Below, in pieces: positions 3,113 through 24,415 of a stretch of 64,000 nucleotides of DNA. The notes beneath the pieces are model-generated. The model did not search any database and had not been told where the DNA came from. It worked only from the letters and a program-made list of their open reading frames with translations. How positions within the stretch are numbered: position 1 is the first letter of the stretch; each line of letters opens with the position of its first letter. Origin of the DNA: Candidatus Saccharimonadota bacterium (GTDB taxonomy: Bacteria > Patescibacteriota > Saccharimonadia > Saccharimonadales > UBA4665); contig JAQBRT010000001.1 in NCBI GenBank assembly GCA_028286345.1, positions 496,001-560,000 of the forward strand, read 5' to 3'. The position numbers and the translations under genes were made by a program.

Positions 3113-4819
3113 ATGTCCAAAACGACCGAGAAACCCAAAAAGCACACTTCAGCCCAAGAACACTCCGCAACTTTCACGCACCGTCAGCGCACTCTTGCGC
3201 TAGTCGTCGTGTCTATGGGCTTTGTGATTGATCTGTTAGATAACACAATCGTTAACGTCGCCATTCCAACTATCCAGAGCAACCTTGGTGCCAGTTACGC
3301 TATGATCCAGTGGATCTTGGCTGGTTATGCCATGACCTTTGCGCTGCTGCTGATTACCGGCGGCCGTATGGGCGACGTTTTTGGCTACAAGAAGCTATTC
3401 TTGGGTGGTGTTGCCGGCTTTACGCTCGCTAGCCTACTGAGCGGTCTGGCTGTTAACCCAACAATGCTCGTTGTGTCCCGGCTTTTCCAGGGGTCAATGG
3501 CCGCCCTGATGGTGCCGCAAGTTATGTCCTTAATGCAGGTGATGTATAAACCGGAAGAGCGTGGGGCTATTAATGGCCTGTTTGGGGCGCTTGGTGGCCT
3601 GGCGGCCTCGCTTGGGCCAGTTATTGGTGGTTTGCTGATCAAGGTCAATGTTGCCGGCCTCAGCTGGCGTCCGCTGTTCCTGATTAACATCCCAGTTGGT
3701 ATCCTGACGCTACTTGCTGGCTTTAAGTATCTTCCGGACGGTAAATCATCGCACCCGCTCAAGCTTGACCTGGTTGGTACCGGCATTGTGTTGGTGGCCA
3801 TGACGCTGCTAGTCTTCCCGCTGATCCAGGGCCGTGAACTAGGCTGGCCACTGTGGGCGTACCTCATGTTAGCCGCTTCTATCCCGGCCTTTGCCATCTT
3901 TGCCAAGTGGCAGAAGGTTAAGAACCGCCGTGATGGTTCGCCGCTGATTGCGCCGTCGCTGTTTGAAAAGCGGTCATTTGCAGCCGGCCTTGGCATTAAC
4001 ATGATTTTTGAAGCTGCCATGCTTGGCTTCTTCCTGACCTTTACGCTTGTACTACAGATTGGCCTTGGCTTTAGCGCCATCCACGCCGCGCTGACCGGTT
4101 TGCCAGTGGCGCTCGGTATTGGCTTTACCATGGCAACATTTGGCCAAAAGGTTATTCCTGCGCTTGGCCGCCGCGCCATTTGGATCGGCACTACAATCAT
4201 GTCGCTTGGCCTATTTATTTTGAGCCTGGTGCTGCACCATTACGCTTTTGCTACAGCAAGCTGGCAGCTAATTCCTGGCCAGTTAATGGTTGGTATTGGC
4301 ATGGGCTTTGTCTTTGCCTCATTGTTTGCAGTCGTCCTTAGTGGCGTTGATGTAAAACACGCCGGGTCGGCTTCCGGTATCCTAAACGCCATCCAGCAAG
4401 TTGGTGGCGCCATTGGAATTGCCCTGATTGGCGTGGTCTTCTTTGGCCAGCTCAACCATGCCGCCGCCAACAGTTTTAATCTGCAGGCTCCAGAGCTCAG
4501 CCACAAGTTAACCGCGCTCCACGTTCCAGTCGATGTACAAGGCCTGATCATTGCCAGAACCAAGCAATGTTTTGTTGATCGCTCCCATGAAAAGGATAGC
4601 CAAGTTATCCCAGCTAGCTGTGTACAGAAAGACCTCTACCAAAACAAAGCTATCGGCGATGCTATCACCTCGAGTGCCCTCAAAGCCAACAGCGCCAACT
4701 TTAACCATGCCTTCAAATACGGTATGGTCTTCGAGGTCTCGTTACTGGCACTAGTCTTTGGTCTAAGCTGGGTGCTGCCAAAGCGCATCGACAAATCAGC
4801 CTACGCTGAAGCGTTCTAG
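3113..4819 (+). CDS. DHA2-family MFS drug efflux transporter (EmrB/QacA type)
   Basis: The 568-residue length and about 14 hydrophobic segments fit the DHA2 (14-TMS) drug:H+ antiporters. Key motifs are present: LDNTIVNVAIP (42-52) in TM1, motif A GRMGDVFGYKKLF (84-96) between TM2 and TM3, and motif C with GLAASLGPVIGG in TM5. The long extracytoplasmic loop before the last helix contains two cysteines (KQCF and ASCVQK), possibly a disulfide. Expression seems conventional: TATTAT, then AAGGAG about 10 nt before the ATG. The substrate cannot be told from sequence; multidrug or lipophilic-cation export is the family norm. Confidence 0.9.
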   Translation: MSKTTEKPKKHTSAQEHSATFTHRQRTLALVVVSMGFVIDLLDNTIVNVAIPTIQSNLGASYAMIQWILAGYAMTFALLLITGGRMGDVFGYKKLFLGGVAGFTLASLLSGLAVNPTMLVVSRLFQGSMAALMVPQVMSLMQVMYKPEERGAINGLFGALGGLAASLGPVIGGLLIKVNVAGLSWRPLFLINIPVGILTLLAGFKYLPDGKSSHPLKLDLVGTGIVLVAMTLLVFPLIQGRELGWPLWAYLMLAASIPAFAIFAKWQKVKNRRDGSPLIAPSLFEKRSFAAGLGINMIFEAAMLGFFLTFTLVLQIGLGFSAIHAALTGLPVALGIGFTMATFGQKVIPALGRRAIWIGTTIMSLGLFILSLVLHHYAFATASWQLIPGQLMVGIGMGFVFASLFAVVLSGVDVKHAGSASGILNAIQQVGGAIGIALIGVVFFGQLNHAAANSFNLQAPELSHKLTALHVPVDVQGLIIARTKQCFVDRSHEKDSQVIPASCVQKDLYQNKAIGDAITSSALKANSANFNHAFKYGMVFEVSLLALVFGLSWVLPKRIDKSAYAEAF

Positions 4820-4820
4820 T

Positions 4821-5069
4821 TTATTTTTCGCGGGAGTTGTGGTTGCGAATGGTTTCTTCGATGGTGGCCTGCAGATTTTTGAGGTCTTGCAGGTTGCTCA
4901 TACGGACGCTGGCCACCACGTCAGCAAAAACCTGGTCGCCGTCTTGGCTGCGCACTTGAAAAAAGTTAAGTGTTGGGATGTCGCCCTCGCTACTTATAAA
5001 TACGCCATGCCCGTCCGAGGCAATGGTGGGCACAAGGTGCGTGAGCCTTAAGTTATTTTGTCCGTCCAT
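4821..5069 (-). CDS. Small DUF3467-like protein
   Basis: This 82-residue soluble protein has a pattern NFFQVRSQDGDQVFADVVASVRMS followed by a C-terminal amphipathic helix, resembling the small DUF3467 proteins, whose function is unknown. The assignment is tentative. It starts 8 nt after the CNNM/CBS transporter gene on the same strand, with TAGGAGGAAC just before its ATG, so it is the second gene of that operon. It ends 2 nt from the stop of the convergent MFS gene, leaving no room for a separate terminator. Confidence 0.6.
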   Translation of the reverse strand: MDGQNNLRLTHLVPTIASDGHGVFISSEGDIPTLNFFQVRSQDGDQVFADVVASVRMSNLQDLKNLQATIEETIRNHNSREK

Positions 5070-21878: not shown

Positions 21879-21915
21879 ACGTGCTATTGCGCTAAAACAC
21901 CTATCATGGTAGTAT
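21879..21915 (+). promoter_or_regulatory. Candidate promoter for the structured RNA
   Basis: TTGCGC (21887-21892), a 17-nt spacer and TAGTAT (21910-21915) form a sigma70-like promoter directly after the DUF2207 stop. It would start transcription near 21922, just ahead of the paired 5' end of the structured RNA. Support comes only from spacing and position. Confidence 0.45.
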
Positions 21916-21960
21916 ATACCGACCTTTGGTTGAGCCAATCCGGTTCCCAGAGCGCACTTT

Positions 21961-22568
21961 GACAGGTATGAAAATATTTTAAGCTAGGAGTTTATCTCCA
22001 TAGCCAATCCTGCTGCAACGCTTACCCCTAAGTGTTCCGACAGGATTGTCTATGTTATAGACAAACTCCAGGGCATGCTGGTTGCTAAGCAATGATGCGT
22101 AGCTCCCCCCTACGCTAGTTGTGATGCAGGTTCAAATCCTGCAATGTCCACTGGAGAGGGGTGTGAGCCAACGTTGGTGGCGGTCGCCAGCAGTGACTCC
22201 ATTCAGGGGCAGGAATGACGCTTCTCCCAGTGCAGCCGGCACCCCGGATGCCAGGCGCATTAGCGTGCACCTCTCTCCTTAACTTCATAAAGATAGATCT
22301 GCAGGGACTCATTGGTGAGCGCACGACACCTTAACACTTGGGGTGTACGGCAACCGCTAGTTGAGCACGACTAGTTAGATTATCTGAGGCTACAGGTAGT
22401 CTGCCAGTGGGTTCCGGAGGGGCGGTCGTGCAGATTGCACATAAAAGGCCAGCGCTTCAGCGCCTCCCCGGCCTGTCCGCCCCTCTCTAAGCTTTGAAGA
22501 AGGACTGGTGTCCACCCGGCCTAACCGCCATCAACACACCATCCCCAAAAACTATTTTCATACCTGTC
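21961..22568 (+). ncRNA. Large structured non-coding RNA of unassigned class, with tRNA-like domain
   Basis: There is no credible gene for 755 nt here, but secondary structure is dense. The ends pair perfectly over 16 bp (21961-21976 with 22553-22568). Inside, in order: a hairpin at 21983-22003; CAATCCTG/CAGGATTG (22005-22012/22041-22048) around a 6-bp hairpin; GTCTAT/ATAGAC (22048-22062); a cloverleaf-like domain at 22066-22156 with D-like, anticodon-like (6 bp, 7-nt loop) and consensus T-psi-C arms (GCAGG-TTCAAAT-CCTGC); an 11-bp stem (22153-22163/22268-22278); and a 9-bp stem (22417-22425/22477-22485) around two hairpins. I do not see the conserved cores of RNase P, tmRNA, SRP RNA, 6S RNA or group I/II introns. 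Exact ends are inferred from the outer stem. Confidence 0.65.
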
Positions 22569-22633
22569 CTTCTTCCAAAGTTTACGACCCGATGTGGTCG
22601 CAGGTTTTGAAAGAAGTAGGTACAATACAACTA

Positions 22634-24415
22634 ATGAAACAAATCTGGCGCGTTATTACCTTTACCCGTGAGCTGTGGCGCTACTACCTGTTAGTGAGCG
22701 TTTTTACCATTTTGCTGGCCGGCATGAGCCAGTTGCAGCCGTTGTTTACCAAAGGCACCATTGACCAGATAACCAAGTTGTCCCATGGCGGCCATCCAGA
22801 TATAACACTGGTGGCAATTTTTGCCATCGCCATCTTTTTAAGTGACTTTGGTGCCACCATTTTTAGCAATATCGGTGGCCACATTGGTGATCTGCTGATG
22901 ATCAAGCAGCAGCGATTGCTGAGTGAGCGCTATTTTAAACACCTGCTGAGTTTGCCGCAGCAGTACTTTGACACTGAGCTTACAGGCAAAATTATCAACC
23001 GCATGTCACGCGGCATCAGCCAGATTAGCCAGTTTACCCAGATGATGAGCAATAACTTCTTGCAGTTTATCTTCAGCACGGTATTTTCACTGATCATTGT
23101 CTTTTACTATTCATGGCAGGTTGGCCTAATGCTCACGCTGCTGTATCCGGTTTTTATTTGGCTGACAACCCGCACCAGCAGCCGGTGGCAGGGCTACCAA
23201 AAGACGATTAACGCCGAGCAGGACGCTGCCAGTGGCCGCTTTGCCGAGGCGATTGGCCAGGTCAAGGTCGTTAAAAGCTATCTGCAAGAGAAGCGCGAGC
23301 TGAGCGTTTTTAGCAAGCACCTTGGCACCGCCGTTAAGACAACAAAGCCCCAGAGCATGTTTTGGCACAAGCAAGATGTTGTCCGCCGCAGCGTGCTCAA
23401 TGTTATTTTCTTGGCAATTTACGCCTACATTTTTATTGCAGCCGCCCACGGCCGTTATTCTATTAGCACGATGGTGTTGCTGATCCAGTACGCTGCCCTA
23501 ATCCGCATCCCAATTTTTAGCATCAGCTTCTTGGTTGACCAAACGCAGCGCACAATCAGTAATACCAAAGACTATTTTGAAGCTATGGATGAGCAGCCAG
23601 CGATTGTTGACGCTGACGCCGCCTCGGAGCTAAAGGTGACCGAGGCTGCTATTAACTTTAAAGACGTAACCTTTGCCTACAAAGACGGCAATGCGGTTCT
23701 AAAAGGCGTGTCCTTTGACCTGCCAGCCGACAGCAAGACAGCGCTGGTTGGCGAGAGTGGTGAAGGCAAGACAACTATCACCAGCATGCTCCTACGCCTC
23801 TACTCAGTAGATTCCGGCAGTATTACCATAGATGGCCAGGACATTACGCATGTAACCCAGGCCAGCCTACGCCAGAACATTGCCGTTGTTTTCCAAGAGC
23901 CGGCCTTGTTTAGCGGCACGGTTCGGGAAAACATTGCCTACGCCAACCCTCGCGCTACCGACAAACAGGTGATTGCCGCTGCCAATGCCGCCAATGCCCA
24001 TGAGTTTATCAGCAAGTTTGATAAGGGCTACGACAGCGAAATTGGCGAACGCGGCCTCAAACTCAGTGGAGGCCAAAAACAGCGCCTGGCAATAGCCCGA
24101 GCCCTCTTAAAAGATGCACCAATCCTTATCCTAGACGAAGCCACCAGCAGCCTAGACAGTAAGAGCGAGCGCATGGTCCAAGAAGCTCTAGAACGCCTCA
24201 TGAAAGGCCGCACAACGCTGATTATTGCCCACCGCCTCAGTACCATCCAGGCTGTTGACCAGATTGTCACCATTAGGGGTGGCCTGGTTGACGAAGTAGG
24301 CAGCCCGGCAAACCTAGCCAAAAGCAAAGGCATTTATGCCCAATTGCTTGAGTTGCAGTCGCAATCTAGCGAGAGCAACAAGAAGAAGCTCAAAAACTAC
24401 GAAATTGCCGGCTAA
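22634..24415 (+). CDS. ABC exporter, fused permease and ATPase (MsbA/ABCB type)
   Basis: The N-terminal 320 residues form a six-helix exporter domain; the C-terminal ATPase has Walker A GESGEGKTT, Q-loop VVFQEPAL, signature LSGGQKQRLAIARAL, Walker B ILILDEATSSLD and the H-loop IIAHRLST. The protein of 593 residues should work as a homodimer exporting lipids, drugs or peptides; substrate unknown. I place the start at the ATG 7 nt after TACAAT. An in-frame upstream extension to 22508 would run through the structured RNA, is rich in Pro/His/Thr and looks non-coding. Confidence 0.92.
   Translation: MKQIWRVITFTRELWRYYLLVSVFTILLAGMSQLQPLFTKGTIDQITKLSHGGHPDITLVAIFAIAIFLSDFGATIFSNIGGHIGDLLMIKQQRLLSERYFKHLLSLPQQYFDTELTGKIINRMSRGISQISQFTQMMSNNFLQFIFSTVFSLIIVFYYSWQVGLMLTLLYPVFIWLTTRTSSRWQGYQKTINAEQDAASGRFAEAIGQVKVVKSYLQEKRELSVFSKHLGTAVKTTKPQSMFWHKQDVVRRSVLNVIFLAIYAYIFIAAAHGRYSISTMVLLIQYAALIRIPIFSISFLVDQTQRTISNTKDYFEAMDEQPAIVDADAASELKVTEAAINFKDVTFAYKDGNAVLKGVSFDLPADSKTALVGESGEGKTTITSMLLRLYSVDSGSITIDGQDITHVTQASLRQNIAVVFQEPALFSGTVRENIAYANPRATDKQVIAAANAANAHEFISKFDKGYDSEIGERGLKLSGGQKQRLAIARALLKDAPILILDEATSSLDSKSERMVQEALERLMKGRTTLIIAHRLSTIQAVDQIVTIRGGLVDEVGSPANLAKSKGIYAQLLELQSQSSESNKKKLKNYEIAG

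Follow-up and report, generated by a model that had tools for sequence, protein, structure and literature searches.

Large ornate RNAs are few in bacteria, and two of the described families stand closest to the locus studied here. GOLLD is linked to phages and prophages, often exceeds 800 nt, is associated with tRNAs and has an unknown function (PMC12286853). ROOL is a multi-armed large RNA, often encoded near tRNA genes and possibly RNA-only (PMC12286853). None of the large-RNA families that we considered comes from Saccharibacteria. We analysed a window of 64 kb (the whole stretch of DNA under study, from a Candidatus Saccharimonadota genome), in which a sequence-only reading had proposed a large structured RNA, similar in style to ROOL or GOLLD, between a DUF2207 gene and an ABC exporter gene. 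Our results make it likely that a structured RNA of some 600-700 nt is encoded here by a free-standing gene (+ strand, about 21922-22616) and that it belongs to a previously undescribed family, which we call here the pheT-exporter RNA. We found no description of it in the part of the literature that we covered.

A strongly folded gap upstream of the exporter

The gene-free stretch reported in the sequence-only reading is indeed there, since 755 nt without a convincing gene separate the DUF2207 stop codon from the exporter ATG (Table 1). The paired ends noted in the same reading are exact (21961-21976 is the reverse complement of 22553-22568) and improbable by chance: an exact inverted match of at least 16 was reached by only 1 of 500 dinucleotide shuffles of the gap, and over 20 nt the arms still match at 95%. 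At least eight further helices had been counted, and we find more than eight with a pairing probability above 0.9. The arms P2, P4 and P5 are predicted with confidence; alternative folds compete in the P3 region, with a possible 12-bp long-range pairing between 22173-22184 and 22524-22535. The RNA is present in a single copy in its genome.

Table 1. Features of the RNA locus and its neighbours in the window.
Feature	Position	Strand	Basis or remarks
DUF2207 gene	stop 21878		Upstream neighbour of the RNA gap
Proposed sigma-70-like promoter	21887-21915	+	TTGCGC (21887-21892), 17-nt spacer, TAGTAT (21910-21915)
Conserved 5' segment	21925-21966	+	TTTGGTTGAG (21925-21934), ACTTTGACAGG (21956-21966), then P1
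P1, 5' strand	21961-21980	+	Pairs with 22549-22568; covariation
P2, long hairpin arm	21987-22069	+	Pairing probability 0.92-0.99
tRNA-like domain	22071-22151	+	ARAGORN tRNA-Gly(CCC); 19 bits with RF00005; cloverleaf not the MFE
P3 region, alternative folds	22153-22280	+	Pairing probabilities, fold comparison
P4, three-way-junction arm	22304-22415	+	Helix probabilities 0.94-0.98
P5, arm with two apical hairpins	22416-22486	+	Helix probabilities 0.93-0.99
P1, 3' strand	22549-22568	+	Pairs with 21961-21980; covariation
Hairpin H	22569-22616	+	Directly after P1; 7/8 outer pairs covary
ABC exporter (ABC_membrane + ABC_tran)	22634-24415	+	ATG 22634; neighbour used for finding relatives, outside the RNA

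The minimum free energy of the gap has a z-score of -7.5 on the + strand and of -4.6 on the - strand. When 600-nt windows were scanned across the 64 kb, the RNA region reached -6.9 and the best window elsewhere -3.0. Control gaps elsewhere in the genome are mostly unstructured. Among those that fold strongly, several contain small coding genes, a terminator-like hairpin or tRNAs; at least one, a T-rich gap of 409 nt at L198:10651-11059 (G000:C2:790651-791059), has no such explanation. Long inverted repeats are nested in it, and its strands have z-scores of about -6.5 and -8. No known Rfam family matched the window RNA, nor its relatives outside their tRNA-like parts (gathering score for the whole window, E <=10 for the region, E <=1 for relatives). 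RNase P RNA and tmRNA, set aside in the sequence-only reading, have canonical copies elsewhere in the genome: the former (RF00010) at G000:C2:16905-17253 with 254 bits, the RNA region having no match, and the latter (RF00023) at G000:C2:346992-347377 with 59.6 bits, the RNA region not being among the matches.

Conserved frame and variable core

Whole-sequence blastn searches of 93 genomes of the family and 393 of the order returned only T-arm matches and chance matches, such as a dnaG coding match at L104 and a 21-mer at L105. Searching the 393 genomes with a single-sequence covariance model built on 22300-22490 yielded no relative. Since the exporter is widely conserved, we sought relatives beside it and examined the upstream DNA of about 107 orthologues, most of which had no gap there or a short one. 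Besides the window, nine other genomes were found to have the RNA (L207, L211, L281 (=L212), L216, L219, L224, L229, L165 and L172); the ten members span seven GTDB families of one order. The relatives' RNAs are 400-860 nt long, lie between pheT(-DUF2207) and the exporter, and fold strongly on the exporter's strand. In the eight members besides L165 and L172 the upstream gene is pheT or DUF2207, and L165 has a pheT-like frame upstream of the RNA. A 482-nt gene-free pheT-exporter gap in another genome (L178:1018-1500, G008; z -7.4) shows an end helix with a hairpin behind it, lacks the conserved box and is possibly a diverged member.

Several other folded gaps were rejected. The exporter gap of L158 is folded and has palindromic repeats, and those of L232, L234 and L262 (family f6) fold strongly on the + strand and are unrelated to the RNA family; L232 and L234 have a common terminator-like hairpin near the exporter, and L232 has repeats of the type AAAGCGGATTT. 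The 291-nt DUF2207-exporter gap at L112:7711-8001 folds strongly on both strands, has inverted ends (CTTGGGCACCTGCGC / GCGCAGGCACCCAAG) and looks like an inserted DNA element. The survey also turned up a LOOT RNA (RF03000, 63 bits) in an exporter-upstream gap (L162:1234-1361, - strand, G016) and, before the exporter of L200 (G033, ~4473-4984), a cluster of palindromic repeats of the TGTCATCCCAGGCT / AGTCTGGGATGACA type. At L105:1272-2281, between lysS-like and HD-like genes, a 36-bp perfect inverted repeat encloses ~940 nt with a small membrane-protein-like ORF.

The ten members have a common frame of sigma-70-like promoter, ACTTTRACAGG box and closing helix P1, the box itself being scored as present in most of them; most also have an NGTTGAG motif (before the box in the window, L207, L281, L216, L165 and L172) and hairpin H. 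The proposed promoter is a TTGNNN and TATAAT-like pair, 16 or 17 nt apart, about 65-95 nt upstream of the box (for example TTGCAT-17-TATAAT, TAGACA-17-TATAAT and TTGACT-17-TAAAAT). The window's own pair is weak when taken alone, with 7/12 consensus positions and an expected start near 21922, and a stricter promoter scan did not pick it up. P1 starts with RACAGG, ends with CCTGTY and is directly followed by H, after which L207, L216, L219 and L224, but not the window, have a terminator-like T-tract.

P1 and H show compensatory changes. Across the two helices in seven members, 96.6% of cells are paired and both sides have changed in 16 of 21 pairs, a score reached by none of 500 shuffles, while slid controls gave 35-54%. 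P1 alone, in nine members, is 98.3% paired with 9/13 compensatory pairs; the P1 counts are inflated because its partners were picked partly by pairing, whereas H was not selected in this way. There are exceptions: L172 lacks H or has a weak one, and L229 has a short P1 in a shifted position. The window RNA has every trait by which we propose to recognise the family: promoter, box, compensatory P1, H and position. The proposal of a large structured RNA is thus strengthened and extended by nine relatives, covarying end helices and same-strand structure in all members.

The cores are unalignable across genera, and as a result no core helix of the window has covariation support; for the same reason, standard homology searches miss the family. 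No core motif was significantly shared, CCAATC being present in 7/7 cores and reached in 1 of 30 shuffles. Even the congeners L165 and L172, whose exporters are 77% identical in protein, have RNAs that align over only ~20 nt at each end. Since the two exporter genes share only 70% identity at the DNA level, rapid drift could explain this just as well as an exchange of cores. Folding is nevertheless kept: the core-only z-score on the + strand is -5.4 to -10.5 in all members and always stronger than that of the - strand. The gaps of L219 and L224 are 84.8% identical (blastn) and keep a common fold, with six core pairs changed on both sides, several of them inside a clear tRNA-like domain. The frame (promoter, P1, H and pheT-exporter position) is conserved, while the core keeps its strong folding and not its sequence.

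The embedded tRNA-like domain of the sequence-only reading is weaker in the window than that reading had it. It consists there of a 6-bp acceptor-like stem, a short D-like arm, an anticodon-like arm with a CTCCCCC loop and a T-arm, which is of consensus type. ARAGORN calls it a tRNA, but its score with the Rfam tRNA model is below the cutoff of 29 bits and the cloverleaf costs about 5 kcal/mol relative to the best fold. A good tRNA-Gly(CCC) is encoded at another place in the genome, as one of its 41 strong tRNAs. Given the sub-cutoff score, the fold, and the genome's own tRNA-Gly(CCC), tmRNA and RNase P RNA, this part of the window is at most a tRNA-like arm. The domain is clear in two relatives, which exceed the RF00005 cutoff (L219, 53.3 bits; L224, 49.7 bits), and in L229 we read a T-arm-like hairpin in the core sequence. 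With the window, a T-arm or full tRNA-like domain is thus found in 4/10 members, from three lineages. Neither tRNA-Ile(GAU) nor tRNA-Ala(UGC) is among the 41 strong tRNAs of the genome; an rRNA operon that is missing or interrupted by introns may carry both.

The cores of L216, L281, L219 and L224 also contain a small ORF, in each case with a Shine-Dalgarno sequence (GGAGG/AAGG) 8 nt before a CTG, TTG or GTG start. L216 and L281 encode similar Cys-rich proteins of 52-53 aa (their alignment scores 147, shuffles at most 73). The ORF of L219 and L224 encodes a basic protein of 48 aa, unrelated to the Cys-rich type, and its codon changes are 6 synonymous and 6 non-synonymous. These small proteins had no Pfam or NCBIfam match above cutoff and no phage match, and the search found no viral relative of the Cys-rich protein. 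None of the ORFs in the window, L207, L211 or L165 was convincing.

A probable free-standing gene and its alternatives

A free-standing RNA gene fits the strand bias, the covarying end helices, the promoter-like and terminator-like ends and the fixed position better than do a leader, a tRNA or a DNA element. The weak promoter of the window and the lack of a T-tract after its H speak against this view, and for these reasons read-through into the exporter is possible. The RNA might then act in cis on the exporter, as a very long 5' leader in which P1, H and an alternative pairing would switch access to the exporter's start. It adjoins the exporter on the same strand, 17 nt lie between the end of H and the ATG, and in the window a 15/17 pairing between 22493-22509 and 22562-22578 would exclude both P1 and H. 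Yet 8 of 200 shuffles reach such a pairing and the relatives do not conserve it, so that the mutually exclusive pairings expected of a riboswitch or attenuator are not a trait of the family. In addition, four relatives have an H that looks like an intrinsic terminator placed ahead of the exporter, and most orthologous exporters have no such RNA. Finally, -10-like sequences (TACAAT/TATACT) lie 8-15 nt before the exporter ATG in the window (22620-22634), L207, L281 and L112, which suggests that the exporter may have a separate, near-leaderless mRNA. We thus regard a leader as unlikely.

A DNA element, either MITE-like or a recombination cassette, seems to us improbable. The P1 arms would be its terminal inverted repeats and the variable core an exchangeable cargo, in keeping with the patchy distribution and with ends that are conserved while the cores of even L165 and L172 cannot be aligned. 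However, the region is single copy, holds no transposase or other sizeable ORF, and has a conserved promoter and H outside the arms. The arms covary instead of staying identical, one strand folds more strongly in every member, and all members (which were sought beside the exporter) are found at one place.

Slightly less probable still is a structured mRNA for small proteins whose fold would be secondary. The four ORFs with ribosome-binding sites and the Cys-rich type of L216 and L281 fit such a role, but the fold is strong in all members, including those without a convincing ORF, the two ORF types are unrelated, and the codon changes of L219 and L224 are evenly divided. An ordinary or decayed tRNA gene with random flanks, as the ARAGORN call might suggest, is very improbable given the low score, the good tRNA-Gly(CCC) elsewhere, the equally structured remainder of the region and the relatives without a tRNA-like part.

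If the RNA is a free-standing gene, its transcription would start at its own promoter; the 5' segment would run into P1, which would join both ends around a core forming a multibranched set of stable arms, and H would close the 3' end. The frame, the covariation of P1 and H and the strand-specific folding are computed results. Since the fold is kept while the sequence is not, we infer a compact structural RNA with a scaffold-like role, acting alone or as an RNP, in which selection would act on the fold and not on the sequence. In some members tRNA enzymes could process or bind the tRNA-like arm, and where a core encodes a small protein, the RNA could be what that protein binds. We tentatively suggest a class of large RNAs of which the frame alone is conserved, whereas the core folds strongly but is almost free to be remodelled or swapped from one species to the next. 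It would sometimes include a tRNA-like domain and sometimes a small protein of RNA-binding type that starts at a non-AUG codon, so that scaffold and message would share one gene.

The family would add a new kind of large bacterial RNA. Saccharibacteria genomes are mostly smaller than 1.5 Mb, and the 700 bases spent on this RNA suggest a real role. Other RNAs with a conserved frame could likewise have gone unnoticed elsewhere. As a frame, promoter, P1, H and locus offer a concrete handle for studies of expression, probing and cryo-EM.

Comparison with known RNAs

The likeness to ROOL and GOLLD stands as one of style and does not extend to sequence or covariance models: the GOLLD, ROOL and OLE models matched no member. 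Homo-oligomeric particles are a trait of those three families. OLE RNA is similarly a structured RNA of about 600 nt, but has a different context. Like tmRNA, the pheT-exporter RNA can hold a tRNA-like domain within a longer RNA and, in some relatives, a short reading frame; unlike in tmRNA, the tRNA-like part is an internal arm and not formed by joined ends, and the ORFs have their own Shine-Dalgarno sequences. The phage or prophage location of GOLLD and ROOL is not seen here, as the neighbours are pheT, DUF2207 and the ABC exporter. Searches of phage and plasmid DNA with the RNA sequence gave no match, and scanning viral contigs for the 5' box gave 120 random 15-mer matches, none with a paired 3' end and hairpin. 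ROOL is also multi-armed and large, but the RNA described here has no viral relatives in our searches and its core is not conserved. With GOLLD it has in common that it is a large ornate bacterial RNA whose conservation is uneven: one end of GOLLD is better conserved than the other (PMC12286853), whereas the pheT-exporter RNA, chromosomal and placed between pheT and the exporter, has conserved ends and a variable core.
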